DNA of 64,000 nucleotides from Betaproteobacteria bacterium (GTDB lineage Bacteria > Bdellovibrionota_B > Oligoflexia > Silvanigrellales > Silvanigrellaceae). Each line of letters begins with the position of its first letter. Within the stretch, counting starts at the first letter, position 1. A program made the translations under genes and the position numbers. A model generated the notes under the pieces. The model saw only the letters and a list, made by a program, of their open reading frames with translations. It was not told the DNA's origin and ran no database searches. Below are positions 26,248 to 64,000 of the stretch, one piece after another. The DNA is taken from NCBI GenBank assembly GCA_016868315.1, contig VGHE01000002.1:406466-470465 (forward strand), read 5' to 3'.

Positions 26248-27555
26248 TCAGTAATCGTAGCGGATGCGCAGACCAAGAGCCTGTTCGAACTTGGCGGATT
26301 TGTTGTCCGAGCCAAGCAGTTCTTCGCGGGGAACCAATTTATCGCCCTTCTTTGTACCGAAGGCAGCGCCGTTCGCATTATCAACCCAAGCCTGTGAGCG
26401 GTTGGAGTTGTAATAGGTGTACGAAGGAATGATGCTCAGCTTTTCATCGACTTTGTACTGACCAGCGAGAGTGTAAGCTGCCTCGGTCGCGCTATCCACT
26501 TTATTCTTCTCGGAAGAAGAGAAGTCTGTGACGCTAGACTCTGCAGCCTTGAGGGTGCGGAAGTTCAACTCGCTGAGAACCGAAAATTCGTTCTTCACGA
26601 TCTTGTATTCACCGGCAACCAGGTAAGTGGTCGCGACGTTTTGGCCAGCGCTGTCATCTTTCTTTGCAACAGCATACGAGTCGTGTGCAATACCAGCCTT
26701 GAACTTCATGTCGTCCATCTTGTGTTCAGCAAGAAGGTGAATGAACAGGTCGTACTTGGGCTTGGATTGATCTTTGATGCCGAGCCACTTGCCCTGCGTA
26801 CCAACGCCCACCTGCACAGGTGTCTCGTCGATTTTAAAGTCTGATGTGACTTTGTGATACCAGGTTGTGTCTGCGTAATCTTTCGCGGAATTTTTGTCGT
26901 TCAAATCCGAAAAAGTCGCGTCATCGAGTGAACCCAAGCGCGCCAGGTGGTAGGTGACTTTCAGGTCGTTCCAACCTGTTTTGTACGCTGCACGGTAGCC
27001 TTCAATGCGGTTCATGTGACCCGTGAAAGCAATAGCTTGAGCAACGTTTGAAGCTTTAGTTTTATCGGTCAGGCCGGCAAGTGCTGGCTCGATTTCGCGC
27101 ACATAACCGAGCTCGAGACCATCAACACCAGGAACCTTAAATAGAAGACTGTAGTACTTCAGCACGTCGGTGTTGATTGTGGTGCGATTGCTTGTTTCGT
27201 TGATGCCGTACTTCTTGGTGTTCTCAAGTTCGTGCAGGCGCAGATCGGCCATTGCACTGCTGTTTTGACCAAGGTTGCGCTCGAGCTTCAGGCGGAATGT
27301 GACGAGCTTGGGTGTTTTGAAGTTTTTGTTGGCCTGGTTCAGATTCTTGTAGAACGGATCAAGTTGCACGCGCATCGAGACTTTGGTGGATGCTGAGCTC
27401 GTTGTAGCCACTGGTGCAGCTGCGGCCTCGACGGCTGGGGCAGGAGCAGCTGCCTGAGCGACGCTCGGAGTTGCAGCCGCAGCTGCGGTGGTTGTGCTTG
27501 CAAGAGCGACTGACGAAAACAAAGAAAATGCAGAAACAGAAACGATATGTTTCAC
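26248..27555 (-). CDS. Porin-like outer-membrane beta-barrel protein
   Basis: This 435-residue protein starts at a GTG 4 nt after a perfect AAGGAGG. The signal peptide ends VALA-S, followed by an Ala/Thr/Pro-rich stretch. The rest consists of alternating amphipathic strands (KVSMRVQLDPFY, LVTFRLKLERNL, LKVTYHLARLG, SIIPSYTYYNSN) and ends LGLRIRYDY, with a C-terminal Tyr as BAM-assembled barrels require. The strong ribosome-binding site and terminator suggest high expression, as for a major porin. A small stem-loop (GTGGC-TTT-GCCAC) at 27577-27589 would lie in its 5' untranslated region. The family could not be named; a phosphate/short-chain-selective or general porin is possible. Confidence 0.72.
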   Translation of the reverse strand: MKHIVSVSAFSLFSSVALASTTTAAAAATPSVAQAAAPAPAVEAAAAPVATTSSASTKVSMRVQLDPFYKNLNQANKNFKTPKLVTFRLKLERNLGQNSSAMADLRLHELENTKKYGINETSNRTTINTDVLKYYSLLFKVPGVDGLELGYVREIEPALAGLTDKTKASNVAQAIAFTGHMNRIEGYRAAYKTGWNDLKVTYHLARLGSLDDATFSDLNDKNSAKDYADTTWYHKVTSDFKIDETPVQVGVGTQGKWLGIKDQSKPKYDLFIHLLAEHKMDDMKFKAGIAHDSYAVAKKDDSAGQNVATTYLVAGEYKIVKNEFSVLSELNFRTLKAAESSVTDFSSSEKNKVDSATEAAYTLAGQYKVDEKLSIIPSYTYYNSNRSQAWVDNANGAAFGTKKGDKLVPREELLGSDNKSAKFEQALGLRIRYDY

Positions 27556-27589: not shown

Positions 27590-27755
27590 CAAAAGTACAT
27601 AGTCAAAATAAAAAGTTGGCAAGTGCATGCAAGATTGTTTGCCTAGATTTCGCGAAAGAGTCACAGAATTGTTCCTTCTGTGCTTGTCTATGAATCAATT
27701 TCTCGGAAAGATTTTTCTGGGCGATTCAAAATTCATTGGGTTCGGAGATTCGTGG

Positions 27756-28838
27756 GTGCGTTTCTTTTCTTTTTCATCAACTTTAATTCTCTGCGCGCTT
27801 TGCTCGCCCTCGGCCAAAGCGTTTGTCTTGTTGCAAGATGAGTTTTTTCCGCGTGCGGATTTCAGCGAGAGAGCCCTAGTGCCTGAGTCGACCTACTTCA
27901 AAGCACACATGCTTTCGGGTGTGGGGCAAGACAGGGTCGAGACTTTGGTCAACGAACAAAGCGAGACACGTGTTTTTGCAGCGCTCGGTGTTGCGGGTCA
28001 GAGCGGTTTCAATGTTGTGGAAAAGCTCCGGCTCGACCTGAGGGTGCAGGCTCTGCGCTCCGTGGCGCAAACTGAAGTGACCGGAAATTCACTTTGGAAG
28101 AAGAATGAGGCGCGTTCTGAGCTTCTAGCGTCGGGTCTGGCGCGTTTTCTTTTAAATGAAGGGCTGCGCGTAGGAGCTGGGGCTCAGTGGATCTTGCGTC
28201 CTGCTGCGGAGGAGGATTTCGTTTTCGCGGGCGAAACCGGCAAGACGAGTTTTTCTGCCTTCAATATGCTGGCTCCTGAATATGTGTTGAGCAAAGAGAG
28301 CGGCTCCGGGTGGTCTGTGGGATTGGCTTGGCGTCCGGAGGCAACGCGGAAGCGTTCATTTGTGCGCATTGCTGCTGCGGAAGAGGCTCGCATGGAAGAA
28401 GATGTTGAGCTTGCGGAAAAGTGGTCAGCCGGCGTGCAAGCGCAGATGCAGGGTGGCCGCCAGCTGAGTTTGGATTTCGAACTTGTTGGTGTGGGCGAAG
28501 CCGAGAAACGCGAGAGTGTTTCGGCTGGGGGCGGGACTCCGCTGGGTCAGGGGAGACGCTACGGAGTGGCCGGAGTGTTGGGCTGGGGCGAGTGGGGAGG
28601 CCACAATCTTGCTTTGGGTGTCGGCTATCAATCGTTGGGCTACACCGAGCAGGGACAAGTTTCACCGCAAACGGCGCCTATGTGGACAGTGCTTTTGCGC
28701 GATGAACTCAAATGGAACGACCTCAATGCCCGCTTCGATGCATTGTTTGGTTTGGGACGCGACAAGCAGAGTCTTCCAGACTTGAATGCAGATTACCGGC
28801 GCATGTTGGTTTCGCTGCAGGCCGGAATCATTTTTTGA
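27756..28838 (+). CDS. Probable outer-membrane beta-barrel protein, unknown
   Basis: The GTG at 27756 (GGAG 8 nt upstream) gives a 360-residue protein whose first residues form a clean signal peptide ending PSAKA-F. Upstream in-frame starts at 27627 and 27690 would put the signal far from the N-terminus. The mature part alternates amphipathic strands and turns: TRVFAALGVAGQSGFNVVEKLRLDLRVQAL, GLRVGAGAQWIL, GWSVGLAWRPE, RRYGVAGVLGWGEWGGHNLALGVGYQ. It ends in Phe (LVSLQAGIIF), as outer-membrane barrels do. It is the first gene of a five-gene plus-strand cluster and is followed 14 bp later by a lipoprotein gene. No family is recognised. Confidence 0.65.
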   Translation: MRFFSFSSTLILCALCSPSAKAFVLLQDEFFPRADFSERALVPESTYFKAHMLSGVGQDRVETLVNEQSETRVFAALGVAGQSGFNVVEKLRLDLRVQALRSVAQTEVTGNSLWKKNEARSELLASGLARFLLNEGLRVGAGAQWILRPAAEEDFVFAGETGKTSFSAFNMLAPEYVLSKESGSGWSVGLAWRPEATRKRSFVRIAAAEEARMEEDVELAEKWSAGVQAQMQGGRQLSLDFELVGVGEAEKRESVSAGGGTPLGQGRRYGVAGVLGWGEWGGHNLALGVGYQSLGYTEQGQVSPQTAPMWTVLLRDELKWNDLNARFDALFGLGRDKQSLPDLNADYRRMLVSLQAGIIF

Positions 28839-28852
28839 AGGGCTGGGCTGAT

Positions 28853-29587
28853 ATGAAAACTTTGGCACCGTTCAAAATCAAATTCATGAATAGCCGCTGT
28901 GCTGTTGTAAATCGCGGCAGCGCTTTCAGGAAGCGCTGCTCCACAGCTGTTGGGGTGGTTGTGGTTGCGTTTCTCATTTCAGCCTGCCGTTTCAAGAGTT
29001 CAATCATCGAATCGAACGGCGAAACAGCACTCGACACCATTCCATTTGCGAAGGCAGGCAGTGAAAACACCAATTCACTTTCCGCAGTTCACTTGGCCAG
29101 CATGCAATCGGCGCCCGCGGCGGTGCGCCCCGATCCCGACCTCTATGCCCGCAGGCTACTCAAGCAATTCCGCAAAGACGGCAACACGCTAGCTCGTCAG
29201 CTTGGCCGCATTGAGCAATACCGCCTCATGTTGGGTGGGGCGAGCCAGGATTTCCGAACTGTGCCCCAAGAAGCATATGATGCAACTTCGCTTCTAACTC
29301 TCCAGAAAGTTGCACAGGAGGTGTGTGTGTCACTGATTACACCTTCGGCAAGGGAGCATCCCGGCTGGTCGAGTATTCTCCCCGAGGCGCTCTCTAATGT
29401 TCAAGGCAACATAAAATTTCTAATGACACGCATGCTCGGGTTTCCGGAGTCATCTCTGAATGCTTCAGCAATTTCGGAGCTTGTGGAGATGGTGAATGCA
29501 TTCCCCGAAAAAGGAGTGATCACCGCAAAAAGCTATCTGCCGGCATGCACGGCGATTGCGATGGATGCGGAGGCTCTGCTGTTGTGA
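28853..29587 (+). CDS. Lipoprotein of unknown function
   Basis: From the ATG at 28853 this is a 244-residue protein with a long basic n-region, a hydrophobic core and a lipobox FLISAC. The mature part is helical with two conserved-looking segments: YARRLLKQFRKDGNTLARQL and RIEQYRLMLGGASQDF, then SAREHPGWSSILPEAL. Two or three cysteines occur in the second half (VCVSLITP, LPACTAIA). No family is recognised. Its stop overlaps the start of the heme-protein gene as GTGA, with GGAGG inside this gene serving as the next ribosome-binding site. The two products are therefore probably made together and may form a complex. Confidence 0.65.
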   Translation: MKTLAPFKIKFMNSRCAVVNRGSAFRKRCSTAVGVVVVAFLISACRFKSSIIESNGETALDTIPFAKAGSENTNSLSAVHLASMQSAPAAVRPDPDLYARRLLKQFRKDGNTLARQLGRIEQYRLMLGGASQDFRTVPQEAYDATSLLTLQKVAQEVCVSLITPSAREHPGWSSILPEALSNVQGNIKFLMTRMLGFPESSLNASAISELVEMVNAFPEKGVITAKSYLPACTAIAMDAEALLL

Positions 29588-31236
29588 AAGTCCTACTTCT
29601 GTCGGCATTGCTGTTTGCAGGAAACCTTTTTTGCGGAGCTCAGACGGCCGAGGCTGCCTCTGCGCGCACCATCCGCCGTGCGGCACAACTTTTGGGTGCA
29701 CGTATGCCCACCGAATCTGAGGTCAAATCAACCCTCAGTAATCAGAGCGGGTATAAATCGTATGTACGATCCTTGCTTGCCAGTGAGGGCTTCTATGAAG
29801 CCATGCTGCGTTATCACGAACGTCAGTTTGGCGTGGGTCTGCCCGAGGAATATCTCGACGAGTTGATGCGCGACGATCTCGACGGCACGTCACAGAAGCT
29901 GGCGACTTTGACCTGCAGTCGAACGTCGAATAATCGGCTCTCGTGTGGTTGGAAGAATGTTGATAGGCGCACGGTTTCCAGCTGCAAAGCTGCAGAGCAA
30001 CAGCCCGTTGCACCCTTTTGGAAGCAGGGATTGGTGTTATGGGTGTGCCCGAGTGTGACCTACGCGTGTGGTGCAGATCTCAGTAAATGTGCAGTCGAGT
30101 TTCCCAATTCCGATGAAGCACGTCACTCCGAATTAGGCACGACCGATGTTTTCGATTCCAAGCGCAGTGTGCTCAAAAGCCTGAGCCGTCAGGCTGCAGG
30201 TATTGCCACAGCAGTTGCGGTTGAGAATTATCCGTACACAAAAATTCTCGCACCAGGGCTGACTGCAGTCGATGGAATCCTCGCTGTATTTCTGCAGCAG
30301 AGTTTTCAATTTGATGTCGACAAACTGCACCCCAATGAATCTCTCTTGCGTCAGCTCAAGGCTGTTCCTGCGAGTCAGTCTAAATTTTCACTCGTTTACA
30401 CAGGTAATAGCTACGAAACTGCGGGAGTGCTCACCACCTTCGGTTGGCTGCGCCGCTACGAGAAAAACCGCACACGTGCAAATCAGCTCTACGAGCGCTT
30501 GATGTGCCGTAAATTCACCTCTGAGTTGCCACGAGTTTTTCCTCAAGATCCGGGGAATCTGCGCACCACTCCAGGTTGTAGTGGTTGTCATGCGACGCTC
30601 GATCCGCTCGCCGATTTCTTCTCGGTGTGGGGCGAGGGGGGAGCTCTCTACACTCCCGTGGGCACGGGCAAGCAAACAACTTTTATTGGCAAAGGCGGAA
30701 GCAGCCTTGCAGACCTCTCCAATATTATTGTGGGCGATGAGGCCTTTGCTGCATGCACAGTGAATCATGCGTTTGAATGGCTGATGGGAAGAAAGTTCAG
30801 ACAGGCTGAGTCAGCTCTGAGGCAATCGCTCACGGATTATTTCATTGGTACAAATTATAGTTTCAAAGAACTTATGTATGCGATTGCCACGCATCCGGGC
30901 TTCACAGTGGATACACGCTCCGATGCAAACATCACCGACCCGCTCGAGCAGCCGGCGATTGGTAAAGTCCCCGAACCATCTTTGCCAGCGTGCAGCACCA
31001 CAATCGACTACAACACCCAAATCGCACCTCTCATTTCTCAATGCACCTCGTGCCACTATAGCGGTTCGCCGCGGCAGGTTCTTGAAACCTCGGCGCAGTG
31101 GAAAACCTGGGGCAGCCAAGCTGTTTCGATGATGAGTGTTGGGCAAATGCCACCCGGTTTGCAGGGGGCTCCCGTGGCAGGAAATGTATATAATTTGAAG
31201 GAAGCTGTGCGCTGTTGGTTGCAACAGAATCCATGA
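29584..31236 (+). CDS. Exported di-heme DUF1588/DUF1585 (planctomycete-cytochrome type) protein
   Basis: This is a 550-residue protein from the GTG that overlaps the previous stop (GTGA), with GGAGG 10 nt upstream. It has a Sec signal ending QTAEAA. Two c-type heme sites are visible: CSGCH (332-336) and CTSCH (487-491). The first lies in PGCSGCHATLDPLADF, typical of DUF1588, and is followed by a DUF1585 region (FAACTVNHAFEWLMGRKF...HPGF). The second lies in a C-terminal cytochrome-like segment with a QMPPG methionine (possible axial ligand). Three CxxC-less cysteine pairs in residues 110-170 may be disulfides. Such proteins are usually encoded next to DUF1501 proteins, as here. The electron partner and substrate are unknown. 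Confidence 0.8.
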   Translation: MKVLLLSALLFAGNLFCGAQTAEAASARTIRRAAQLLGARMPTESEVKSTLSNQSGYKSYVRSLLASEGFYEAMLRYHERQFGVGLPEEYLDELMRDDLDGTSQKLATLTCSRTSNNRLSCGWKNVDRRTVSSCKAAEQQPVAPFWKQGLVLWVCPSVTYACGADLSKCAVEFPNSDEARHSELGTTDVFDSKRSVLKSLSRQAAGIATAVAVENYPYTKILAPGLTAVDGILAVFLQQSFQFDVDKLHPNESLLRQLKAVPASQSKFSLVYTGNSYETAGVLTTFGWLRRYEKNRTRANQLYERLMCRKFTSELPRVFPQDPGNLRTTPGCSGCHATLDPLADFFSVWGEGGALYTPVGTGKQTTFIGKGGSSLADLSNIIVGDEAFAACTVNHAFEWLMGRKFRQAESALRQSLTDYFIGTNYSFKELMYAIATHPGFTVDTRSDANITDPLEQPAIGKVPEPSLPACSTTIDYNTQIAPLISQCTSCHYSGSPRQVLETSAQWKTWGSQAVSMMSVGQMPPGLQGAPVAGNVYNLKEAVRCWLQQNP

Positions 31237-31248
31237 CAGTGAGGTGGC

Positions 31249-32571
31249 TTGAGCGTGTGCAGAGATGAGCATCGTCGCGACTTTCTTCAAGCAGGCATAA
31301 GCCTGAGTGCAACCTTCATGCTTTCGCGCCTGATGGGGAATTCACAGGCGTGGGCTCAGGGTGCCTCGGAAGATTTCCCCGTACGGCGCAAGCTCGTGTG
31401 GATACACATGGGTGGCGGATGGGACATTCTTGAGACGGTCGATCCGAAGCAACAATCCACCTCAAAACTCGACGTCACATACGACTACAGTCAGGCGCAA
31501 GCCCTCGCTGGTGCAACACAGGATGTTCGGCTTGGACGCTGGTGGAAAAAGACCGCACGCTATGGCTCGGATCTGCTTTTGGTGCGTGGTTTGGCGATGG
31601 GAACAACCTCTCACGACGCAGGGAGTGTTTATGCCGACACGGGCGTGCTCTCCAACAGTGGGAATGTCAACGCAGCCAGTATTCCCACCATCGTGGCTTC
31701 GCAAAGCGGAGCAACCATTCCTCTTATCCAACTTGGTGGTGCTGCAACGCCCAAAACCGATAGAGGCTTGCTCAAGCCGGTTTCAATTGTGCGTGCGACC
31801 GACTTAAATTTGTACCAAGGATTGTTTCCCAAAGATGCCACAACCCAGGATGCCACCACCCGCATTTTGGAATATTCACGGCGCTCAATTTTGCGGTTGC
31901 AAGCATCGGCAGGGAGCAACGATCGCCTCACTGCAGTGGAGGCAGCACGCAGTAAAATTCTCGGGCAAATTGATGCAGGTGTGGGCTCAAAATTAAGTTT
32001 GAGCGATGCCGACCGCGCTCCTTTTTTGGCTGCGCTCGATTCCGACACTCTGGGCAATGTGCGCGGTCAGGTTGAGAGTTTTGCTTTGGCGGTCAAGCTT
32101 CTCAAGAACGACCTTGTGTCTTGTATCAACATGGGGGTCGGCGGATTCGACACTCATTCGAATCAAGAACGCGCACTCATGCCTGTGTTGACCAACTTCG
32201 ACGCATTGTTCTCTGCTTTCTTGTCTCAGCTCAAAGGCGAGGGTCTACTCAACCAAACACTCATTGTGCTTTACTCAGATTTCGGTCGAACCCCGAAGGT
32301 GAATGCCATGTCGGGTCGCGATCACTGGCCCGTGGGTGGAGCCTTAATGGCCGGTGGAGGCCTTGCGGGTGGACGCGCTGTAGGTGCCACCGATGCCGAC
32401 TTGCTTGCAAAGAACGTCGACCCCAACACTGGCCTTGAGTCGAGCTCTGGTATTCAGCTGAGCCCCATTCACCTGGGCGGCAGTGTGATTGAGTTGACCT
32501 TGGGGTCGGGATACCTGGGCAAACGCCCCTATCTCGAATCGATTCCTGCGCTGACGCGTCTTAAGTCTTGA
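31249..32571 (+). CDS. DUF1501 family protein with Tat signal
   Basis: This 440-residue protein starts at a TTG (GAGG just upstream; a GTG at 31255 is an alternative). The N-terminus carries a twin-arginine motif, HRRDFLQAG, followed by a hydrophobic stretch ending AWA-Q, so it is likely exported folded. The body matches DUF1501: KLVWIHMGGGWDILETVDP, GVGGFDTHSNQ, LIVLYSDFGRTPKVN and DHWPVGGALMAGGG, a sulfatase/alkaline-phosphatase-like fold. The conserved DTH, DFGRT and H residues could bind metal. The family's reaction is unknown. Pairing with a DUF1588/DUF1585 heme protein 12 bp upstream is the usual context and implies a common periplasmic function. Confidence 0.85.
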   Translation: MSVCRDEHRRDFLQAGISLSATFMLSRLMGNSQAWAQGASEDFPVRRKLVWIHMGGGWDILETVDPKQQSTSKLDVTYDYSQAQALAGATQDVRLGRWWKKTARYGSDLLLVRGLAMGTTSHDAGSVYADTGVLSNSGNVNAASIPTIVASQSGATIPLIQLGGAATPKTDRGLLKPVSIVRATDLNLYQGLFPKDATTQDATTRILEYSRRSILRLQASAGSNDRLTAVEAARSKILGQIDAGVGSKLSLSDADRAPFLAALDSDTLGNVRGQVESFALAVKLLKNDLVSCINMGVGGFDTHSNQERALMPVLTNFDALFSAFLSQLKGEGLLNQTLIVLYSDFGRTPKVNAMSGRDHWPVGGALMAGGGLAGGRAVGATDADLLAKNVDPNTGLESSSGIQLSPIHLGGSVIELTLGSGYLGKRPYLESIPALTRLKS

Positions 32572-32589
32572 AAGCGAGGACAACAGGTT

Positions 32590-33672
32590 ATGTGGTTTCC
32601 GGTCGACTTCCCTATGCCCAACGAGCACTTCGTTCAGCGCACGCTCACGCCTCAGGCCACCGCTCCGCAAACTCAAAGCCTGCAGATTCCCTTTGCCTGG
32701 CGAAGCCTCGATTCCAACGCCAAGGCCGACCTCACGGTCAATGCTCAGCAGTTTCAAGCTTCAACACTCGCACGAGTCCAAAAACGCAATTTAGGTGTGG
32801 CTTTTTCGCCGTCCTCGGGACTTTGGTTTTCGCTTCTTTTCAATGAAGAGGTGGCGGCTGTCCGTAATACCCGCGAATCCAACAGCAACCGGGTGACTCT
32901 CAATGAGGAATTCCAAGTGCGTGAGGCTGTCGCGCGGGTTGGGCTCGACCTGCTCAACAACATGAAACTGGGGATTGGCATTCGCTCACAATCGGTGCGG
33001 GGCGATGTGGTTGGAAGTTTCAGTGTGAGTGCGCTCAACCGTGTTGTTTACTCGGGCTCCCGATTGGGTGTCGTTGGTGCGCTGCTCGTCAACCTCGCGC
33101 CTGTGCAGATTGCCGTGCGCCACGAAACACCAGTGACTGGAAAAGTTGATATTCAGGGTGAGAGCAAAGTGAGCTCTACATATGGTTACACAGGTGGTGC
33201 AGTGAGTTTTGCAGTGAACTCTGAAACGGCGCTTTTAGCCGAGTATGGGTATTACACGGCAGCACGCAACGAACTCGCCTCACCCGTGCCTTCCGCAGGA
33301 TCCAACAACGGTCTAACCCTTCTTCCACTTGGAACAGCGATTGAAGCCCGGGTTGTTCCGCTGAGCCTAGTGGGTGCTGGCGTCTCGCACAGTCTTGGCT
33401 CCGCACTCAGACTGCAGCTCGATGCGGTTCAGGGAAAAATTTATGCGAGTAGCGATCCGGAGCTGTTGCTGCCGGACACCGTGCCAGACGATCAAAAACA
33501 AAAAGTGAATGCAATTCGCTTAGGACTTTCACTTGAAAAAGGTGACTGGGAAAGCCAGATTTTTGCGGATTATGGGCAGTCTAAGGTGTCTTACAGCATT
33601 GACAGCAGCAACAAAGTTTCGCGTTCGCATTCATACTGGGGCATAGGTTTGCGCGCCGGTGTTGAGATCTGA
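32590..33672 (+). CDS. Beta-barrel-like protein without visible signal peptide
   Basis: This is a 360-residue product from the ATG at 32590. An in-frame TGA (the previous gene's own stop at 32569-32571) lies just upstream with no other start between, so no longer form is possible. The N-terminus (MWFPVDFPMPNEHFV) has no signal peptide. The sequence nevertheless alternates strands and turns like an outer-membrane barrel: GLWFSLLFNEEVAAV, NNMKLGIGIRSQSV, RLGVVGALLVNLAPVQIAV, LLAEYGYYTAARN, SYWGIGLRAGVEI. Export may depend on a partner, or it may be a cytoplasmic beta-rich protein. It closes the five-gene cluster and overlaps the convergent ABC transporter gene by 42 bp. No family is recognised. 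Confidence 0.6.
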   Translation: MWFPVDFPMPNEHFVQRTLTPQATAPQTQSLQIPFAWRSLDSNAKADLTVNAQQFQASTLARVQKRNLGVAFSPSSGLWFSLLFNEEVAAVRNTRESNSNRVTLNEEFQVREAVARVGLDLLNNMKLGIGIRSQSVRGDVVGSFSVSALNRVVYSGSRLGVVGALLVNLAPVQIAVRHETPVTGKVDIQGESKVSSTYGYTGGAVSFAVNSETALLAEYGYYTAARNELASPVPSAGSNNGLTLLPLGTAIEARVVPLSLVGAGVSHSLGSALRLQLDAVQGKIYASSDPELLLPDTVPDDQKQKVNAIRLGLSLEKGDWESQIFADYGQSKVSYSIDSSNKVSRSHSYWGIGLRAGVEI

Positions 33673-35517
33673 GTTTGAACTGCGCAGGTAGGCCTCGAGA
33701 ACCTGCTCGCGCGCACCAAACATGCGCACTCTTCCCGCTTCCATCCACAACACCCAATCGCAGGCGCGCAAAGTTGTGAGTCGGTGTGCAACTATGACCC
33801 GAGTTTTTCCGCGCAGCAGTTCAGCAACAGCCCATTCAAGTTTTTCCTCCGAGGCCGGGTCAACTGCACTTGTGGCCTCATCCATGACAATCAGCGGAGC
33901 ATCTTGAAGAACGGCTCGTGCTAGGCAAATGAGCTGACGCTGCCCGGCCGAGAAGTTGGCGCCGCGTTCATGCACGGGCTGGTTCAATCCACCCTCGCGT
34001 GCCAGCAGTGGTGCAAGCCCGATACGTTCCAGTGTGGATATGAGCTCTGGGTCATGGTCGCTGCGTAAGCTCAAATTCTCACGCAGCGTGCCCCGGAACA
34101 GGGTGGGCTCTTGTGGAATGTAGGCCAATAGAGACCGCAGTTCTTCCGCTGTGCAGCTGTTGTTGCCTGTAGAAAGGCCGCACAAATGAATGCTGCCTTC
34201 TTCAACTGAATACAGAGCAAAGAGCGCTTGAATGAGAGAACTTTTGCCACTTCCGGTGCGCCCGACAATGCCTAAACTCTGGCCTGCCGGCAAAGTGAAG
34301 CTCACAGAATTCAACACGCGCTCTTTGTCAGTGTTATAGCGCAATGAAACGTTGTTCACTTCAATGCCACGCGATAAATCGGGTGAGCTCTGTTTAAGAG
34401 TGCCCGTGGACATGGGGTGTAAGGTTTGAATCAGGCGTGGCACAGGCAACACTGTAGCTGGTTCTATCGGACGGCGGAGATAATCGTCCAGCCGTTCAGC
34501 ACCTGTGAGAGCTTCTTCGAGCTGCAACACATATTCAAAGTACTGCTGGAGTGTCGTCGATAAAAGCCAGATCTGGGTAAGCACAACCACAATTTGTCCG
34601 AGACTGACCCACCCCGCATTTTTGAGCCATAGCCCCAGTGCTCCGAACAGAAACAGCGCAGCTGCAGTCGCAAGGCTCATCTGCAAAGAGAATTTTGCTG
34701 TCTTGCGCTGCTGCGCTATACGTTCGCGCTGAAGATTCCAATTGAGTGCGTTGAACCGGTGTGTGAATAGTTTTTGTCGGCCATAAATTTTAACAGTGCG
34801 CGAGCCCTGAGCGGTTTCTGCGAAGTGTGCAATGGCAGGACCACGAGCAGCTGAAACACTGCGTCGAGCACTGCGAATAGCCATTCTGTTGCTCAGGTAA
34901 ATGGCGGCATAAATGCCTCCTACAGCAAGTGCTGCGGGCAAACCGAGAGTTCCTGTGGCAGCCATGAAGAGCAAGCACAGGACGGCATCGAAGCTCAGAC
35001 TGATGAACTCGCCCATAGGGCCACCCGTCATGCGCAACACGCTTTCAAAGTCGCTTGAGAAGCGGGTGAGGGCGCGCCCAACAGGAGTGCGATCGAAAAA
35101 CTTCATCGGGAAGCGCGAGACACGCACAACCACTTCATCGTGCAGTACACCCGCGGCACGGGTGCCAAGGCGCGCGATTGCCACACGAAAAATAAGATTC
35201 AAGACAAGCGCAACGGTCACCATCACCACGAGGAGTTTTGCGAAATCGGAGGCTGTCCAACCCACAAACACCGAGCCGCGTGAGGTGCATTCTTCGCCAC
35301 TACAACTGTTGTCGACCCACCACCCCACAACATTTGCTGAACCAACTAAGCAGGCGCGTGCCACAACTCCAATCATCAAAGTTATAAAGGTCGCCTTGCG
35401 CCAAGGGCCATAGGCCTCCCACAGGCTCTGCCAGACCTGTGATTCAAATCGACCTTTGAATTGAACTTCGGCCTCGTGAAAATGGCTTTTTGGTGGGAGT
35501 GAGGCGTTGTTGCTCAT
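33631..35517 (-). CDS. ABC exporter half, ABCC type, canonical ATPase site
   Basis: This 628-residue protein fuses a six-helix exporter membrane domain (about 40-330) to a nucleotide-binding domain. Visible motifs are Walker A GRTGSGKSS (419-427), Q-loop PQEPT, signature FSAGQ (522-526), Walker B IVMDE with catalytic Glu547, and H-loop His578 (VAHRL). The linker and the sequence ERIGLAPLL...NFSAGQRQL resemble the second half of MRP/ABCC proteins. It should pair with the product of the gene just upstream, whose stop overlaps this start as ATGA. Export of a lipid, peptide or conjugated compound across the inner membrane is likely. The substrate is unknown. Confidence 0.88.
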   Translation of the reverse strand: MSNNASLPPKSHFHEAEVQFKGRFESQVWQSLWEAYGPWRKATFITLMIGVVARACLVGSANVVGWWVDNSCSGEECTSRGSVFVGWTASDFAKLLVVMVTVALVLNLIFRVAIARLGTRAAGVLHDEVVVRVSRFPMKFFDRTPVGRALTRFSSDFESVLRMTGGPMGEFISLSFDAVLCLLFMAATGTLGLPAALAVGGIYAAIYLSNRMAIRSARRSVSAARGPAIAHFAETAQGSRTVKIYGRQKLFTHRFNALNWNLQRERIAQQRKTAKFSLQMSLATAAALFLFGALGLWLKNAGWVSLGQIVVVLTQIWLLSTTLQQYFEYVLQLEEALTGAERLDDYLRRPIEPATVLPVPRLIQTLHPMSTGTLKQSSPDLSRGIEVNNVSLRYNTDKERVLNSVSFTLPAGQSLGIVGRTGSGKSSLIQALFALYSVEEGSIHLCGLSTGNNSCTAEELRSLLAYIPQEPTLFRGTLRENLSLRSDHDPELISTLERIGLAPLLAREGGLNQPVHERGANFSAGQRQLICLARAVLQDAPLIVMDEATSAVDPASEEKLEWAVAELLRGKTRVIVAHRLTTLRACDWVLWMEAGRVRMFGAREQVLEAYLRSSNSDLNTGAQTYAPV

Positions 35518-55315: not shown

Positions 55316-58300
55316 TCAATTTATGGGTGCAGTCATGAAATAGAATGCACGACCTTTTCTATCTTTAAGCCAGAAGACACCACGAATTTCTGGATGAGCA
55401 GAGTCTGCCTGAAGTGAGTATTTACAGCTTGTGTCTAGATTTTCTGGTGCGGTAATTACATTCGAGCAATTTGTTGAGTCGGAGAGGGTTGAGATATAGT
55501 CGATCTTGAAAATATCAGTTAGAGATGGGTGGATGTTGATTTTTTCCTGTTGTGAAGCACTGGTTGTTCCATAAAGACGCAACGCAACGCCGTCACCTTC
55601 AACAATATCAGTCAGGTCTGACCTAAGATTCTCTGCTCGTAATGTAGCATCCTTGATGCACTTCCATCCAGTTGCAGCAGTGTTCAGACAAGTTGCACTC
55701 CACCCTGTGCCGATAGAAAAGTTCTCCAACCAGGTACGGCGTGCAAAAGTTTCTGCACTGATTGTGATTTCGCTATCTGCATATATAACTTCGGATTTTT
55801 CAGCCTTAGTGATGTCAGCGCCTGCAGCGGCCGCTGTTTCTTGTGAAACTGTTGTAGACGAGTCGTTTTTGAGGCTGCGCAGCGGAACCCTGAGGTCTGC
55901 AGATGCATCAAACAGAACGTGTGTTGGATCGTCGGATTGGAAGTTCACCTGGAAGCGCGAGCTGAATTTGTTATTTTCGCCCCAAACAATAAATTGACCA
56001 TATTTTCCGGTGGCAACGCCCTCTGTTAGATGCGCTGGAAGAGTAAAGGTTGGCTCAACTTCATCAGTGACCAATGCTTCGCTCGATGTGGATACTGCAG
56101 CGGTCAGAGTCAACCCAGAGTTGTTCTTAAAGGTGCACAATGAGAATGGCTTTGAGTTGGCATCATACATCCAGGGTGTACATTCTACCGTTGGTGCCGC
56201 CCGCTTAACTGGCGCAAGAACCTTAAATCCTGTTCCACCAAAATCATTGTTGTTATCGTTTGTCTTGCATCTCAGAGTTCCCTCTAGGAAGCCTGTTGTT
56301 GTGCTTGCTGAGAGAGTAAAGCTTGTAGTGCCATTTGACGTCACCGATTCGGTTGCAGAGCCGGCGTTCTCAACAAAACCAGCAGTGATTTCGGTTCCGT
56401 TGCAGGAGCTCGTTCCAAGGTAGTTTCCTGCCTTATCAAACCTCCAACCGTAGAATGTGCCACAACCTGCACCACCAGCGGCGGTGCCCGAGTTGTTGGT
56501 TGTGCAAACTATCGATTCTAAGCACTCAGGCTTGGAGTGAATATGATTTCCATTATTTACACAGGTGTAAATCGGAGGCTGCGTTGCTGTGCGTGTGATC
56601 ATGCTTCTTCTTGTTGCGCCTGCCAGAATGGTTAATGCGCGTGTTGCGTTGGCACCGCATTTTGAAAACGAAAGAGTGTGGGCCTTCGCTTTGTAAATCT
56701 TTAGATTCGCAACACTTGATGTAGTGTTGTTGGTCACCTGAATGCTGTCAGCAAATGGTCCAGGCTCATTTCCCGATACAGAAAGATTGCAATCGGCAGC
56801 TCCATTCGATGTTCTTGTTGTTATGTTATCGAATTGGTCTTTTGCGGTCACCGTGAGCGCAATTACTGAGTTTTCATCGGCGTACTCATCCACACCAAAG
56901 TCATCGTTCGAAGGCATTCCAGAAATATCAAGTTTTGCAGCCAAACCTGCAACCACCGGAGGAACTACGACTTCTACTGTTTTACCGCGTACAGTGACAT
57001 TGAACTTGCTCGCGGAGGGCTGAAGCTTTTTGAAGTTCATAGATGCTGCAGGGAAACACTCCCCGTTTTCATTGAAAGTGCAATTGGTAATCGTTGAGGT
57101 AAAGACATCGGAACTGGTTAGGCTTGCAGCATTCGCTCCAAATGTGTGTGCTTGTGAGCCGACAGTTGCGAATCCAATATTTTGAGTTGCGTTGAGTCCC
57201 GGCATGGCAACGAAGTCATTGCCGCGCTGACTCTTCAGGCCAATCTTTGAAAGTGTGACATTTCCCAGTGCAGCCTGAATTTCTGTTCCAGTGATGGTAT
57301 AAATGTTGCTAGCAAGTGTGGATGTGGGGAGAGTGGTGACTTCAAGTTTGGCAGGCCCACCCCAAAGGTGAACAAAGTTGCTGCCGCCCTTGCATGTGAT
57401 GACGTCGTTCATGGCTGGAACGGCAGCCGTTGACCCAAATGTCTGGGAGTGTTCGGTCGCGCCATCAGCAAAAGTTCCACCATATGCTTTTCTTTGCCAA
57501 ATACAGGTTTGGTTGTTTGCTGCCTCAGTTGTGGTTTTGTTTCCATATTCATCATATTTGAAGGCATAGAGATTGGGGCATGTAACACTATTGTTGCCGT
57601 TCAGAGTTGTGCACGCGATTTGCGTCGCAGTATTTTCGTCGTTAGTTGACCAGCTAGGTGCAAGGTTTTCTTTGCTGATAAGATATTTAGACGATGCCTT
57701 CGGATCGACTTGCACAGTTGTTGTTGCCGTGAAATTGCAGCCCGTTCCTTTGAAGGTGAGCGGATTGCTGCCTGCTGCAAAGAGAGTTACAGGAGCGGTT
57801 GCAACGTTATTAGCAACTGTTGTTGTGCCAAGTGTTGCAGTTGCCCCGGTGGGAGAGCTAGGTGCTGACTCAAGTGTATACCCAGTGCAGCCAAAGGTGC
57901 TCGGGTTTTCTTGTGCGTCGAAGCCCTTCAACTCAAGATTAAATTGCGTTCCCGCAATTTGAGTTGCTACAGGGTTGATTGTCACTGTGGTCACTGTACC
58001 AGCATTCACAATCATCGAGATGTTGTTGGAGGTCACGCCGCGCACCTTGACTGCAATATCATTGAGACCACTGCCACCAGCACGAGTCAGGCTGAGTTTG
58101 ACAGGGCTTGTTGTTAGGTTGTTTCCCGTACCGCATACGCCGGTGCTGAAGTTGCAAGTTGGATTCGCAGGTACCACGGGATTTGCATTTTGCATGACTG
58201 ATTTGACAGCAGTGGTGACAAACTCAATGGGCTCAGCTGTGAATGCAAAGCTTGCGGAGGTGATTGCCTGTTCAGTGCCTCCCGCTCGCGTGAAAAGATC

Positions 58301-61300
58301 AATTCTGTGAACCCCAACGTTGTCGTTTCCGGCAGTCACGGTTCTGTGATTTGTTGAATCCGAATCAGATGCAATGTCGATCCGGTCGGACTTGGCCAGT
58401 TTCAAAGCCACACGTGAGATTCCACCGCGGACGGTCGGGGTGGTGGTTGAATCCAGTGCACCGATAGTACATTTCACTGTGCCATCGAGGAAGGCTGTGT
58501 GGCTAATGGAGAGCTGGCGGCCGGCTGGCAGCGCAGCAGGTGTTGTACTTGGACTGACAGCAACGTAGTTCCAGGTACATTGTTTGGTTGTGTCTGTAAC
58601 AAGGTTACCTTTGGCATCGAGTGGGTATGCATACACGGTGTCGCAAACTACGCCCGTACCTGAGGTTTGTCTGTGAGTGCAGCCGATCGCTGCAGTAGCT
58701 GTATCAGTTGTCACATTGTCTGCCGTGCGGTTTGGTGCTGAAAGCAGTTTGATGCTGGCGAGTGCACCTTCCGTAACCTTCACGTTGTGGGAGGCTGTGT
58801 ATCCACATCCCGTGAAGCCCAGGTTGAACCCATCGGCCTTCACTCTCGGTAGCCGGAACGAATCGTTCGCCAAGGTATAAATGCCTGTTTGTGTTTTGCT
58901 TGGGTTCGCAGTTTGAGCGTTATCAGTGTTTGGCGCTTGTGTGGACTCACCTGGTGCAACATAAACGAGATTTGCATTATCACACGCTGGGTTTTTGAAT
59001 GCGTCGAAGAGTCGAATTTCACCCTCGAACAGATCATCCGTTGTCACAGTTGTGGGAATGGTTGTGGTGAAGCTGTTGGGAGCTGCTGCCTTGACCTTGA
59101 TTGTGGTGAGCTTGTTTGCGCTGGTCGCGTCAGTCGCTGATACGCCCTTTACGGAGATATTAAGCGTTCGAGCAGTTTCGTCAGCTTTGGCAAAAGTAAA
59201 GGCTTTCGCGGTTGAACAGAGCCCCGTTGCGTTGAAGTCGCAAGTTATAACTGGAGAGTTAGTAAACGGTGTGCCTTCTGGAGCTGCGCTTGCCGTTGTG
59301 CTGTAACTGATTGTGAGATTGCCGGCGTGGCTCGCATTGGACAGAGCGCCATTCACATATGTTTTGAGCTGAATTGAGTTTACGGTGAAGTTATTCGCAC
59401 CAGCAGTGATAAATCCGTTATCGTCTCGCGTGTCGGTTGTGGTGACTTCGAGATGTTTGAAGCCACCGTAAACTTTCAGCGACTTTGTTGTGTTGGTGGT
59501 TCCATTCACGTTCTTGATACAAGCTAAGGTTGCATCGAGTGCACTAAATGAGGTGACCTGAATAGAAGCAGAGGCGGCTTGCTCCTCCCAAGGACGAGTG
59601 GTGTTGGCTGCGTTGATGTCGGTGAGTGTCCATTTATCGCAGGTATCATTAGCTCTTTGGTTATCAAAATCATCATAGAAATAAGCATAGATGTTGGCAC
59701 ATGTGGCACCGCCACCTTCGTTTAGGGTTGTGCAGGGCAAGCTGTTTGCGCGGTCAGTCTTCACGGCAGAGTTGTTGTCGGTCACATAGAAGGATTTGAC
59801 CGCACCACCGTTGATGCTGAATGTTAGCTTTCTTGCAACACCACAGGTCGTGAACGTAATGGGAAGATTTGTGCCTGCACGTGTGATCTGCATATTGCGC
59901 AGGTGGTGTGTACCCACAGTGCTTGCAACCTTCAGGTTGTCGTTTCCTGTAGGATGAACAAAGGAATCCCCGCCCTTGGGATTGTTGGCAATTGATTCAG
60001 TGAATGTTGTGGTTGTGTTGCAGACTGTGCCGTCGGTGTTTTTGTCTGTCAGATTATCAAATGCATCTTTGTTAAAGATATTGAGGCCAAATTTATCGTC
60101 GGCGGTGAGGGTGGCTGCCATGTTGTTTGCAAACGCATTGCCTCCTGAGTCGAGGAGTGCGTGCGTTGAGCTCGCAGCGTTTGCAGCCGCGGGTGCGACC
60201 TTGATTGTGCTAAGTTTTGCAGAATCCGCATCTGCAACAATCGTCGAAATGCCCGAAACGGAGAGCGTCAGGGTTTTATCCGTGTCGTCAGCCTTGGCGA
60301 ATGTAAAGCTCTGTGCGGTGCTGCAAATTCCGTTGGTGAATCCACAGGAGTGTGTGGGTGTTGCAGTAAAGGCCGTTCCATTCGGCGCGGGGCTTGCGGT
60401 TGTCGTGTACTTGATGTCGAATGTACTTGTGTAGTCCGCGTTTACAAGTGCGCCTTTATTATGTCCTTTAAGTTTGACACTGTTGACGGTGAAGTTATTC
60501 GCTCCGGCAGTGATTTTTCCATTGCCATCACGGTTGTCGGTAACTGTAACCTCAAGTTTAGAGAATCCACCATAGAGGTGAATACCGGCTGTGTTCCCAA
60601 TTTCAGTCGCTCCGGCTTTAACGCAGTTCAAAGTAGCGTCAAACGAGGCGATGGAAGCGACCTGAATAGAAGAAGAACCACTTTGCTCAGCCCAGGGCGG
60701 ATTGGGTGCTTCACTTCCAGTAAAATGGGTGAGAGTCCATTTGTCACAGGTATCGTTTGCACGGTGATTTCCGTAGGTATCGTAGAAGTAGGCGTGTATA
60801 TTTCCACATGTTGCACCGCCATTACCACTCAAGGTTGTACAGCGATCTGCTTCTAATGGCGTAATGCTGACTGCTGCTGATTTGTTTAGAACGTACTTTT
60901 TCGCAACATTTGGAACAACATTGAATGTTACCGCGCGAGCAATGCCGCATGTGGTGAATGTTATAGTTTGATTAGTTCCAGCTTTGCTGATGCTTGCATT
61001 GCGAAGATGGAATTTTCCAGTTTCATTACTTCGTTCGTTGTTGCCCGTTCCAGTGGGACGTACATATGCATCCTCATTATTCGGGTTGTTGTCAATCGGG
61101 TCGTCAGATGTCGTCGAATCTGTAGCAGCGCATGCAGCACCCGCATCGTCTAAATCTGTGGGGTTGCCAAATGCATCCTTGTTAATAAAGTTTAGCCCGA
61201 ACTCTTCGCCTGCCACAAGAGTGTTATTTGTTCGAACTGTTCCGAAATCATCGAGAAGTGTATAACTCGAATAGGTTGCTGCTGCATTCCCCGGCGTGAC

Positions 61301-64000
61301 GTCGATTTCATTTGAAGTCCATGATTTGCCGCGTGCTGCGACTGTGATGGTTCGGTCAGCTTCGACCTTGGTGAAGTTCAGCTGGAACGCCGAAGCCGAT
61401 GGAGGTGTAGTGCATTCCCCTGTAGCACTAAAATCACACTTGAACGACGGTGTCACAACTGCGGGCGGGGTACCCGAGGCTGCTGAAGAAGCGTTTGTTG
61501 AAAGTACAATGTCTTCTCCTGGCAGCGCTACTGGGTATTGGCCGAGTGAGTAATTTCCATCTGTATACGTCGGAGTGAGATACATGATTTTGGAGATCAA
61601 TCTGTTTGCTGCGTTTGCGTTGCCAGCTGTAACAGCCTGAGCAGTTCCAGCTTTGAGCGTTGCAGCGGTGTTATCTGGGTTGCCATCAAGAATTGCCTTC
61701 ACCGAGTGAATACCGCCATAGAGGTGAATGGCTCTATCGAGTGTGTCGCCGGCAAAATCGCACTTCAGGTCGCCATCAAGGAAGTCTGTGCTGCTCAACC
61801 TTGTGTTCGCACTGGCTGTCGGCAGGCTTATGACTACTTTGTTTGCATCAGAGCTGTGAGCTGTGGTTCGTTTCGTATAACTCCAGTCGGTGCAGCTAAT
61901 CCCATCTGCAATGCGGTTGTAGAACTTATCATAGAACCATGCATACACATTCCCGCAATCAGCACCTGACCCCTGCGCATTGAGGGTGCAGCGTTGCGAG
62001 ATTGTGTTGTCTCCCGTTGCTGCTGTTGGCGCAGTGGCACTCAGTGTGACGCGTGTGTGTTTATGTGCAGCTGGATTGACTTTCACATTCATGGTCACAT
62101 CAGCGAGACCGCAGGCTTTGAAGGTTAATGTGTGAGTTCCTGCTTTTGTGACCGTAAAGCCATTGAGTGAGCTAACTTCAGTGGTTTCAGCGAAACTGTA
62201 AACACCTGTTGGTTCCTTTGCTAGAAGCCGGTCGCCACTTGTCAGCCGTGAGTTGTTGCCATCGAGTCCCGAGCCCGTGATGTCGTTGGCGGCCGGAACA
62301 CAGGCCTGAGCGGCAGCTGTTTGGTTTTTCAAGATGCTTGTGGGGTTGTTGAATTCATCAAAGACCCTGATTTTTGCTCCTACAGAAGCACCTGCGGTCA
62401 TAGGGTTGTCCGCTGTAATCCTGGTATTTTCATTTACAACTTGTGTGTACAGCCCCACCTGCATGGAATGTGCACCGCGCGGGGTCACAGCGAGATTATT
62501 TATCGCGAAGGTTCTGCCGCGCAGTGAAATATTTATGTGGCGCGGGTTGGCCTCAACTTTGCGGAAGCTGAGCACACCCACGTTTGCGGCGGGCACACAT
62601 TCACCATTCGCACCAAAATTGCATGCAAAGGTTGTTGAACCTGTGGCAATTGGGAAAGTTGATTCGGTCAGGCTGCGCGCATCGGCTGAGCCGAATGCTA
62701 TTGTTTCTCCCAGCGCGGCGGGGAAGTCGTCTTTTGGAGTATCCGCTTCAACTAGGTCTACTCCACTCAAGCTTGGCTTTTTAAACTTTGCCGTCACTTT
62801 GGTGATTTTGAAGTTGTCGGCTGCGGCGACAGCGGTTTCCGCTCCACCACTGCCCCCAAATGTATAGGTTGCCGCGATGGATGAAAGGCCACCGTAGACA
62901 AACGCCTTCGCACTCACGGAGTTTTCAGTTGCGCAGGTCAGAAGGCCGCTTAGGTATTTGGTATTTGCATCCGCTGTGAAAATTGTGGTTCTGTCGGTAT
63001 TGGCGGCAGCTAATGCAAAGTCATCGGTCTTGTTCGCACCGTCAGCAGATGCAGATTGATAGTCCCAGCTTGTGCACTTCGCAGTCGGATGGCGGTTACC
63101 ATAGGTGTCCCAGAAGTACCCACGTATGGTTGGGCAGCGCACGCTCAGCCCAACTCCCAGTGGGCATTTAACCTCGGGGGTGGTCGTTGCAGCGGTGGGT
63201 GTGTCTTCCTGTGTGGAGAGCTGCGCTTGGTGAACGGCACCCGAACCGACCGTAAAAATACGCTCTTCGGCAGGCAGATTACATGCTCGTATCTTGATGA
63301 CTACTGCCAAAGTGTTTCTGTACAGCTTAAACCTTATGTTGTTCCAGTAGGCTTTTGAAGTCTCGGTAAATATCCTTGTGTTCGCCTCACCATTGAGTGC
63401 ATATGTATTGAGATCGGAAAGATTAATTGTGCCAGGTATGGACGCTATTTGATCATTTACTGCGCATCCCAGCGCTGTTGCCGAATCGCCGCATTTTGGC
63501 GGCATCATTAGCTGAGTTGCTTCAATGGTTGCAGTATTTGTGTTGCAGGTGCGGTTTCCTTGTGCGTCGAGAGCTTCAAGGGAATCCAACGTGATTTCTT
63601 CGCCGGCAGCGACGCTTGTTTTGTTGAAATTGCCGACTTTGAGTCGAGTGGCATTTTGTAGGCCAACTGAAATTCCCGCGATTTCCTGCTTAACTCCGCG
63701 CGTTTGAATTATGATTTTTCCGCTTGTTTCGGCCGTAAAACTAAAGGAGACCATCCCGTCCATGTCGCCTGCTGTGCTATGGTTTTTTACAAGATCAGTT
63801 GGGAGTGCGGCTACGGGAAGCGCTCCTTCTTTGCTGAACGCATAGACTTCAGTCCGTTCTCGGTTCACAGACTGTAGGTTTGAACTTGTCACATTGCCGC
63901 CAGCGTCGACTCCGCCACCGCGATACTGGAGGAGTGTGACTTTCGTAATCTTCAGATTATTACTACCGACAGGTATGTTGTTCACGCTTGGAGGATCTGT
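55316..64000 (-). CDS. Giant Cys-rich multi-repeat exported/surface protein (Ig-like, 5' end outside window)
   Basis: At least 2,894 codons are open from the right edge to a stop at 55316. The first in-window start-like codon (GTG at 63985) has no signal peptide after it and lies inside a repeat, so the true start is beyond the window. The visible part is seven copies of a 350-390-residue super-repeat. Each has an 'A' part (NFxVxxxxL ... CxFxxxGxC ... LxFxKA ... IxVRG), a 'B' part (DxFxNP ... AGTxxxTFxxCG) and a 'C' part (CTTLNGxGxxTCxNIYAYFYDxYGNxxAxxTCDKW ... YGG). The YGN-type turns recall Big_1/invasin Ig-like domains. About eight cysteines per unit suggest disulfides. The C-terminal ~350 residues differ from the repeats and may be an anchor or secretion domain. 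A surface fibre or adhesin is likely. Confidence 0.85.
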   Translation of the reverse strand, partial: TDPPSVNNIPVGSNNLKITKVTLLQYRGGGVDAGGNVTSSNLQSVNRERTEVYAFSKEGALPVAALPTDLVKNHSTAGDMDGMVSFSFTAETSGKIIIQTRGVKQEIAGISVGLQNATRLKVGNFNKTSVAAGEEITLDSLEALDAQGNRTCNTNTATIEATQLMMPPKCGDSATALGCAVNDQIASIPGTINLSDLNTYALNGEANTRIFTETSKAYWNNIRFKLYRNTLAVVIKIRACNLPAEERIFTVGSGAVHQAQLSTQEDTPTAATTTPEVKCPLGVGLSVRCPTIRGYFWDTYGNRHPTAKCTSWDYQSASADGANKTDDFALAAANTDRTTIFTADANTKYLSGLLTCATENSVSAKAFVYGGLSSIAATYTFGGSGGAETAVAAADNFKITKVTAKFKKPSLSGVDLVEADTPKDDFPAALGETIAFGSADARSLTESTFPIATGSTTFACNFGANGECVPAANVGVLSFRKVEANPRHINISLRGRTFAINNLAVTPRGAHSMQVGLYTQVVNENTRITADNPMTAGASVGAKIRVFDEFNNPTSILKNQTAAAQACVPAANDITGSGLDGNNSRLTSGDRLLAKEPTGVYSFAETTEVSSLNGFTVTKAGTHTLTFKACGLADVTMNVKVNPAAHKHTRVTLSATAPTAATGDNTISQRCTLNAQGSGADCGNVYAWFYDKFYNRIADGISCTDWSYTKRTTAHSSDANKVVISLPTASANTRLSSTDFLDGDLKCDFAGDTLDRAIHLYGGIHSVKAILDGNPDNTAATLKAGTAQAVTAGNANAANRLISKIMYLTPTYTDGNYSLGQYPVALPGEDIVLSTNASSAASGTPPAVVTPSFKCDFSATGECTTPPSASAFQLNFTKVEADRTITVAARGKSWTSNEIDVTPGNAAATYSSYTLLDDFGTVRTNNTLVAGEEFGLNFINKDAFGNPTDLDDAGAACAATDSTTSDDPIDNNPNNEDAYVRPTGTGNNERSNETGKFHLRNASISKAGTNQTITFTTCGIARAVTFNVVPNVAKKYVLNKSAAVSITPLEADRCTTLSGNGGATCGNIHAYFYDTYGNHRANDTCDKWTLTHFTGSEAPNPPWAEQSGSSSIQVASIASFDATLNCVKAGATEIGNTAGIHLYGGFSKLEVTVTDNRDGNGKITAGANNFTVNSVKLKGHNKGALVNADYTSTFDIKYTTTASPAPNGTAFTATPTHSCGFTNGICSTAQSFTFAKADDTDKTLTLSVSGISTIVADADSAKLSTIKVAPAAANAASSTHALLDSGGNAFANNMAATLTADDKFGLNIFNKDAFDNLTDKNTDGTVCNTTTTFTESIANNPKGGDSFVHPTGNDNLKVASTVGTHHLRNMQITRAGTNLPITFTTCGVARKLTFSINGGAVKSFYVTDNNSAVKTDRANSLPCTTLNEGGGATCANIYAYFYDDFDNQRANDTCDKWTLTDINAANTTRPWEEQAASASIQVTSFSALDATLACIKNVNGTTNTTKSLKVYGGFKHLEVTTTDTRDDNGFITAGANNFTVNSIQLKTYVNGALSNASHAGNLTISYSTTASAAPEGTPFTNSPVITCDFNATGLCSTAKAFTFAKADETARTLNISVKGVSATDATSANKLTTIKVKAAAPNSFTTTIPTTVTTDDLFEGEIRLFDAFKNPACDNANLVYVAPGESTQAPNTDNAQTANPSKTQTGIYTLANDSFRLPRVKADGFNLGFTGCGYTASHNVKVTEGALASIKLLSAPNRTADNVTTDTATAAIGCTHRQTSGTGVVCDTVYAYPLDAKGNLVTDTTKQCTWNYVAVSPSTTPAALPAGRQLSISHTAFLDGTVKCTIGALDSTTTPTVRGGISRVALKLAKSDRIDIASDSDSTNHRTVTAGNDNVGVHRIDLFTRAGGTEQAITSASFAFTAEPIEFVTTAVKSVMQNANPVVPANPTCNFSTGVCGTGNNLTTSPVKLSLTRAGGSGLNDIAVKVRGVTSNNISMIVNAGTVTTVTINPVATQIAGTQFNLELKGFDAQENPSTFGCTGYTLESAPSSPTGATATLGTTTVANNVATAPVTLFAAGSNPLTFKGTGCNFTATTTVQVDPKASSKYLISKENLAPSWSTNDENTATQIACTTLNGNNSVTCPNLYAFKYDEYGNKTTTEAANNQTCIWQRKAYGGTFADGATEHSQTFGSTAAVPAMNDVITCKGGSNFVHLWGGPAKLEVTTLPTSTLASNIYTITGTEIQAALGNVTLSKIGLKSQRGNDFVAMPGLNATQNIGFATVGSQAHTFGANAASLTSSDVFTSTITNCTFNENGECFPAASMNFKKLQPSASKFNVTVRGKTVEVVVPPVVAGLAAKLDISGMPSNDDFGVDEYADENSVIALTVTAKDQFDNITTRTSNGAADCNLSVSGNEPGPFADSIQVTNNTTSSVANLKIYKAKAHTLSFSKCGANATRALTILAGATRRSMITRTATQPPIYTCVNNGNHIHSKPECLESIVCTTNNSGTAAGGAGCGTFYGWRFDKAGNYLGTSSCNGTEITAGFVENAGSATESVTSNGTTSFTLSASTTTGFLEGTLRCKTNDNNNDFGGTGFKVLAPVKRAAPTVECTPWMYDANSKPFSLCTFKNNSGLTLTAAVSTSSEALVTDEVEPTFTLPAHLTEGVATGKYGQFIVWGENNKFSSRFQVNFQSDDPTHVLFDASADLRVPLRSLKNDSSTTVSQETAAAAGADITKAEKSEVIYADSEITISAETFARRTWLENFSIGTGWSATCLNTAATGWKCIKDATLRAENLRSDLTDIVEGDGVALRLYGTTSASQQEKINIHPSLTDIFKIDYISTLSDSTNCSNVITAPENLDTSCKYSLQADSAHPEIRGVFWLKDRKGRAFYFMTAPIN
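56400..63990 (-). repeat. Seven ~1.06-1.18-kb super-repeats in the giant gene
   Basis: Equivalent turn motifs (YGN, FYN, FDN, KGN, AGN) mark the units near plus-strand positions 63100, 61920, 60770, 59665, 58605, 57545 and 56425. Unit lengths are therefore about 1180, 1150, 1105, 1060, 1060 and 1120 bp. The units around 60770 and 59665 are the most alike (both contain ANDTCDKWTLT and AGANNFTVNS). The outermost copies have diverged more. Confidence 0.85.

Follow-up and report, generated by a model that had tools for sequence, protein, structure and literature searches.

A conserved five-gene cell-envelope locus joining a two-CxxCH heme protein and a DUF1501 protein to a lipoprotein and two barrel-like proteins

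Gene content of the locus

The window analysed here is a stretch of 64,000 nucleotides from the genome of a member of the family Silvanigrellaceae. At positions 27756-33672 it holds five co-directional and tightly packed genes for cell-envelope proteins, with all ORFs open. The preliminary description of this DNA had read them as a barrel, a lipoprotein, a di-heme DUF1588-DUF1585 protein, a Tat-exported DUF1501 protein and a further barrel, and the reading holds, with DUF1588 scoring below its cut-off. The tight coupling it described, with a GTGA overlap and short gaps, is borne out by the measured spacing of successive genes (14, -4, 12 and 18 bp from barrel1 to barrel2). Comparison of all five proteins with Pfam gives confident names for two of them: the 550-aa protein contains DUF1585, and the product of the next gene is a DUF1501 protein. 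Neither the lipoprotein nor barrel1 has a match in Pfam, and in NCBIfam no protein of the set reaches a cut-off. Export signals are found in every product except barrel2.

The two outer genes encode barrel-like proteins. The first, barrel1 (27756..28838, plus strand; profile A3), is a predicted outer-membrane beta-barrel with the signal peptide VRFFSFSSTLILCALCSPSAKA and with the family motif GxDxQSxxEFNAxY near its C-terminus. Its start is uncertain, the coordinates being about 27756-28838 and the ORF opening at 27627. The last, barrel2 (32590..33672, plus strand; profile A4), begins 18 bp after the DUF1501 gene, and its match to OMP_b-brl in Pfam is sub-threshold. Measured against shuffled sequences, beta-amphipathicity is in excess in both barrel families (mean z 2.25 for barrel1, 2.26 for the window protein; mean z 2.71 for barrel2, 4.21 for the window protein) and not in the other three proteins. 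Homology between barrel1 and barrel2 is not supported.

Signal peptides are present in barrel1 and in 13 of the 14 barrel2 ORFs from other genera, the remaining one (L057) being unclear. All three members of the window's genus, that is the window and two relatives, lack a signal peptide in barrel2. A signal peptide hidden in another frame can be rejected, because no frame contains a signal-like segment. In the same three genomes the stop codon of the DUF1501 gene lies 15-18 bp ahead of the barrel2 start codon. The two ORFs are in frame, and a read-through fusion can likewise be rejected, in view of the conserved start site and of stops that differ (TGA, TAA, TGA). Between the window and L040, within the genus, barrel2 shows dN of 0.27 and dS of about 2.4 (saturated). 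Because it is still constrained, barrel2 is probably functional in this genus; because its signal peptide is absent, an outer-membrane location is doubtful there. Of the original picture of two outer-membrane barrels enclosing the set, the flanking position and the beta-amphipathic character of both proteins stand, while barrel2 of this genus lacks the expected signal.

The lipoprotein gene (28853..29587, plus strand) lies 14 bp downstream of barrel1. Its product has the lipobox LISAC, a mostly helical C-terminal domain and a Leu-rich C-terminus; the lipobox cysteine, Cys45, follows a hydrophobic stretch and is invariant in 17/17 lipoproteins. The AF2 model has a mean pLDDT of 71, with values >85 over most of the C-terminal domain. 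Homology between the lipoprotein and the heme protein is not supported by sequence. Phycobilisome linker domains are the best structural matches of the two models (Z 6.5 for the lipoprotein and 4.7 for the heme protein, below the informative range of the tool), and Foldseek returns no match with E < 1 for either.

The heme protein gene (29584..31236, plus strand) starts within the 4-bp GTGA overlap with the lipoprotein gene. Its 550-aa product consists of a DUF1549-like N-terminal segment, a DUF1588-like part, DUF1585 and a C-terminal cytochrome-c-like domain. PSD2/DUF1585 (PF07624) scores 26.4 bits, over the cut-off of 25.8, and is matched by all 18 family members at E <= 1. PSCyt3/DUF1588 (PF07627; 14.5 vs 27 bits) and PSCyt2/DUF1549 (17.1 vs 29.8 bits) stay below their cut-offs; a weak DUF1588 match recurs in 18/18 members, with a best E of 9.8e-5. 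In Pfam the protein does not match DUF1800, for which three family members give E of 0.008 or weaker. The two CxxCH sites noticed earlier are indeed there, CSGCH at residue 332 in the DUF1588-like part and CTSCH at residue 487 in the C-terminal domain, and both are invariant in all 18 members of this exported family. The C-terminal domain further carries a conserved GxMPP motif (GQMPP in the window protein), which would fit Met as an axial ligand. In 58/58 genomes there is a cytochrome c assembly family, as PF01578 in the window's own genome. Since the CxxCH sites are invariant, the GxMPP cytochrome domain is present and the assembly family is available, two-heme electron transfer by the 550-aa protein is plausible. 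Its AF2 model is of low confidence (mean pLDDT 63.6).

The DUF1501 gene (31249..32571, plus strand) has a TTG start after a gap of 12 bp, and its Tat-exported product carries the motif RRDFL. Its match to PF07394 reaches 121.6 bits against a cut-off of 27 (E 5.8e-35); the protein may belong to the alkaline-phosphatase/sulfatase-like superfamily. The twin arginines, GGWD, TSH, DTH, DFGRT and GRDHWP are invariant in 19/19 orthologues. A profile search of the PDB gives 13 matches, all of them either to sulfatases or to a phosphonate monoester hydrolase; they are marginal (E 0.03-0.57) and all fall on one strand region, TLIVLYSDFG, where SDFG is aligned with sulfatase SDNG and Phe stands in place of Asn. 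The sulfatase motif C/SxPSR (formylglycine/nucleophile) is absent from the window protein and from the family alignment, and membership in the S1 sulfatase family can be rejected for this reason. The phosphatase/sulfatase-like fold that had been suggested thus keeps the marginal, consistent PDB matches and lacks the sulfatase catalytic motif. We regard the protein as at best a metal-hydrolase-like member of the alkaline-phosphatase superfamily. Because the nucleophile motif is absent and Phe replaces the aligned Asn, it could also be a non-catalytic structural protein.

Upstream of the locus, a divergent gene (26248-27555) encodes an exported-looking protein of 435 aa with no Pfam match over cut-off; both genus relatives have an ORF of similar size in this slot. 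The last 42 bp of barrel2 are shared with a convergent ABC transporter gene (33631-35517). Farther on, an ORF of 2889 aa (55316-63985) has a weak CarboxypepD_reg-like match as its sole match.

Conservation and descent in the phylum

Eighteen other genomes of the phylum have an orthologue of the DUF1501 protein, at 49-79% identity. In the 18 surrounding regions every ORF was scored by BLAST and against a profile for each of the five families. Since these profiles derive from the orthologues that BLAST had found, what they add is mainly the reach to diverged barrels. Twelve contigs show the complete order barrel1-lipoprotein-heme-DUF1501-barrel2, and three more (L045, L049, L051) keep it as far as the contig reaches. 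Fifteen contigs besides the window therefore show the same order wherever their length allows, and the genes flanking the set vary from family to family. Three exceptions were found. The barrel1 slot of G014 (L057) is taken by an unrecognised ORF of 280 aa; G005 has its barrel2 at another place (C462) and none after its DUF1501 gene; and the locus of G018 is represented by a 3.5-kb contig with just the heme gene, the DUF1501 gene and the end of the lipoprotein gene. The comparison of gene order proposed in the preliminary description thus finds the order kept among differing flanks, with the barrels and the lipoprotein beside the DUF1501 pair as far as each of the 15 contigs extends; the absence of these neighbours, named there as the refuting result, is not what is seen.

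Profile searches of 58 genomes of the phylum detect the lipoprotein in 19, barrel1 in 18 (A3), barrel2 in 20 (A4) and the cluster-type heme protein in 20; cluster-type DUF1501 is present in 19 of the 56 genomes searched for it. Seventeen genomes possess all five genes, including G057, which is outside these 56 and whose DUF1501 was counted as present by assumption. Fisher tests of joint presence give p values from 1e-11 to 2e-14, with shared ancestry ignored. Both barrels are single-copy and almost confined to genomes with the cluster. The lipoprotein profile finds nothing in 398 genomes from the phylum of a Vibrio locus, nor in 246 from the phylum of a Planctomycetaceae locus; the cluster-type heme protein is likewise missing from the 398 genomes at E <= 1e-10, and it has no match in a plasmid collection.

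When the heme and DUF1501 proteins are placed in a tree, the genomes fall into their families: f10, f4, f6 and f1 each come together, and f1 joins f2, a family of the same order. The locus is absent from all eight genomes of genus g5, which belongs to the window's own family, and from four of six in g12. A tree that follows the families, together with such patchy absence, suggests an ancestral locus that was repeatedly lost as a whole. As the five genes are kept together and are jointly present or absent across one phylum, they almost certainly represent a conserved functional unit and not chance neighbours. The proposed self-contained system is in this respect well supported by conserved order, variable flanks and joint occurrence in the 58 genomes.

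A second locus type

With the heme profile, more distant proteins that have one CxxCH came up as well. Six loci, which we call type-II (L086:5445-10523, L087:5282-10467, L088:4187-9440, L089:4668-8487, L091:1112-4993 and L093:5499-9061), contain adjacent and co-directional genes for such a one-CxxCH heme protein, for a small lipoprotein and for a DUF1501-like Tat protein. Three of them (L086, L087, L088) have an additional, separate lipoprotein with two CxxCH, and barrels were not detected in any. The type-II lipoproteins are found in 8/58 genomes. When profiles of the two locus types are compared, the heme proteins match with E 1.3e-30, the DUF1501 proteins with E 3.6e-9 and the lipoproteins with E 9.6e-6 over the C-terminal 109 columns; as background, the window-type lipoprotein profile gives E 0.02 to 0.8 against other segments. 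On these profile scores, type-II is a paralogous locus and its three proteins are remote homologues of those in the window. Because all three are homologous between the locus types, the heme protein, the lipoprotein and the DUF1501 protein form a shared core. The lipoprotein had been described as unique; since type-II holds a homologue, this does not stand, and we see in it a core partner that is not confined to the window locus.

The cytochrome c domain fused to the window's heme protein matches the separate type-II cytochrome with E 2e-4 over 35 columns. It may correspond to the separate two-heme lipoprotein, and the match is only suggestive because it covers little beyond the C-terminus of the heme domain. 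A further locus, L090 (G047 contig C18:27580-28594), is a decaying type-II locus, with three internal stops in the lipoprotein match and a truncated heme ORF.

Possible function and relation to known systems

We suggest, with a probability of roughly 0.4, that the locus encodes an outer-membrane-anchored periplasmic redox/hydrolase complex, a single envelope machine whose genes are passed on and lost together. In the periplasm, the Tat-exported DUF1501 protein would act as a metal-dependent enzyme of the alkaline-phosphatase superfamily, either a hydrolase or a transferase. Docked to it, the two-heme protein would carry electrons between the site of the reaction and the pool of periplasmic cytochromes by way of its C-terminal cytochrome c domain. 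The lipoprotein might anchor or scaffold this pair at the outer membrane, with the barrels as dedicated conduits for substrate or product. We favour this explanation because it accommodates gene order, joint presence, the tree, the invariant CxxCH and DUF1501 motifs, the assembly family, the PDB matches and the type-II core.

One alternative is a secretion or assembly apparatus, in which a polymer or protein of the cell surface would be matured or anchored by the heme protein and DUF1501, with the barrels serving for its export or display. Export systems typically include dedicated barrels and a lipoprotein, DUF1501 and DUF1800 have been linked to bacterial chitin synthase operons (PMC5122149), and a separate DUF1501-DUF1800 pair exists in the window's own genome; the conserved unit, however, includes no synthase, ATPase or export gene, and its flanks are variable, so we consider this unlikely, yet worth keeping in mind. 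Nutrient scavenging, with DUF1501 cleaving sulfate or phosphate esters, the barrels as porins and the heme protein as an accessory, would agree with the marginal sulfatase and phosphonate monoester hydrolase matches and with the frequent location of PSCyt genes near sulfatases in Verrucomicrobia (PMC5615132). It appears rather improbable, because C/SxPSR is missing, glycan-degradation genes are not part of the conserved unit, and the two-heme protein and the lipoprotein are constant partners that simple scavenging would not need.

The combination of barrels and a lipoprotein with a protein bearing c-type heme motifs also recalls a porin-cytochrome conduit for extracellular electron transfer of the Mtr/Mto kind. 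Decaheme MtrA spans the outer membrane, for which two CxxCH sites are too few. With two CxxCH and a DUF1501 protein foreign to Mtr/Mto systems, the locus is very improbable as such a conduit. The least probable reading is that the genes are neighbours through descent alone, with no joint function. The gene tree does suggest vertical inheritance from an ancestor of the phylum, but the genes keep their order where the proteins share about 50% identity (near 20-25% for the barrels) and all flanks have changed, and absences affect the whole set; this reading is strongly disfavoured.

Beyond the redox/hydrolase complex itself, we tentatively propose that heme protein, lipoprotein and DUF1501 protein might constitute a three-part redox enzyme of the periplasm that has so far gone undescribed, the lipoprotein being a third subunit that was overlooked. 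The window locus would then be its barrel-equipped form, and the partners of DUF1501 (DUF1800, PSCyt2/PSD1, PSCyt3/PSD2) would be exchangeable. DUF1501 and planctomycete-type cytochrome domains are widespread and their function is still undescribed. A co-inherited locus with a defined lipoprotein partner turns the "frequent pair" into specific, testable subunits, and the paralogous type-II form isolates the common three-gene core.

DUF1501 and the PSCyt/PSD domains are described in papers as functionally uncharacterised. In Verrucomicrobia, PSCyt genes have conserved neighbours and often lie near sulfatases (PMC5615132), a DUF1501 gene cluster is reported from compartmentalised PVC bacteria (PMC4452313), and in PVC clusters PSCyt2/PSCyt3 genes adjoin two families of unknown genes (PMC5615132, PMC4452313). 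In the literature, as far as it was covered, we found neither the lipoprotein nor the barrels described as DUF1501/PSCyt partners, nor a biochemical characterisation of family members.

S1 sulfatases and the phosphonate monoester hydrolase match the DUF1501 protein marginally over the TLIVLYSDFG strand region; C/SxPSR and the Asn after the aligned Asp set the sulfatases apart. The DUF1800-DUF1501 pair (PF08811 and PF07394) likewise places a Tat DUF1501 protein beside a partner; unlike the heme protein, DUF1800 of the window's own genome has no CxxCH, and the pair lies away from the window locus (L085:8551-11392). There, on contig C7, the second DUF1501 gene adjoins DUF1800 (E 1.7e-99) near a GroEL-like ORF. 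Type-II loci share the three adjacent, co-directional homologues and differ in the single CxxCH, the undetected barrels and, in L086-L088, the two-CxxCH lipoprotein. PVC-type clusters are similar in being exported and in having a PSCyt/PSD heme-motif protein beside the DUF1501 protein, whereas in the window the heme protein is PSCyt3/PSD2-like and carries a cytochrome c domain fused at its C-terminus, and the fixed partners include a lipoprotein and two barrels. Taken together, the window locus is a variant of the poorly understood DUF1501/PSCyt systems.
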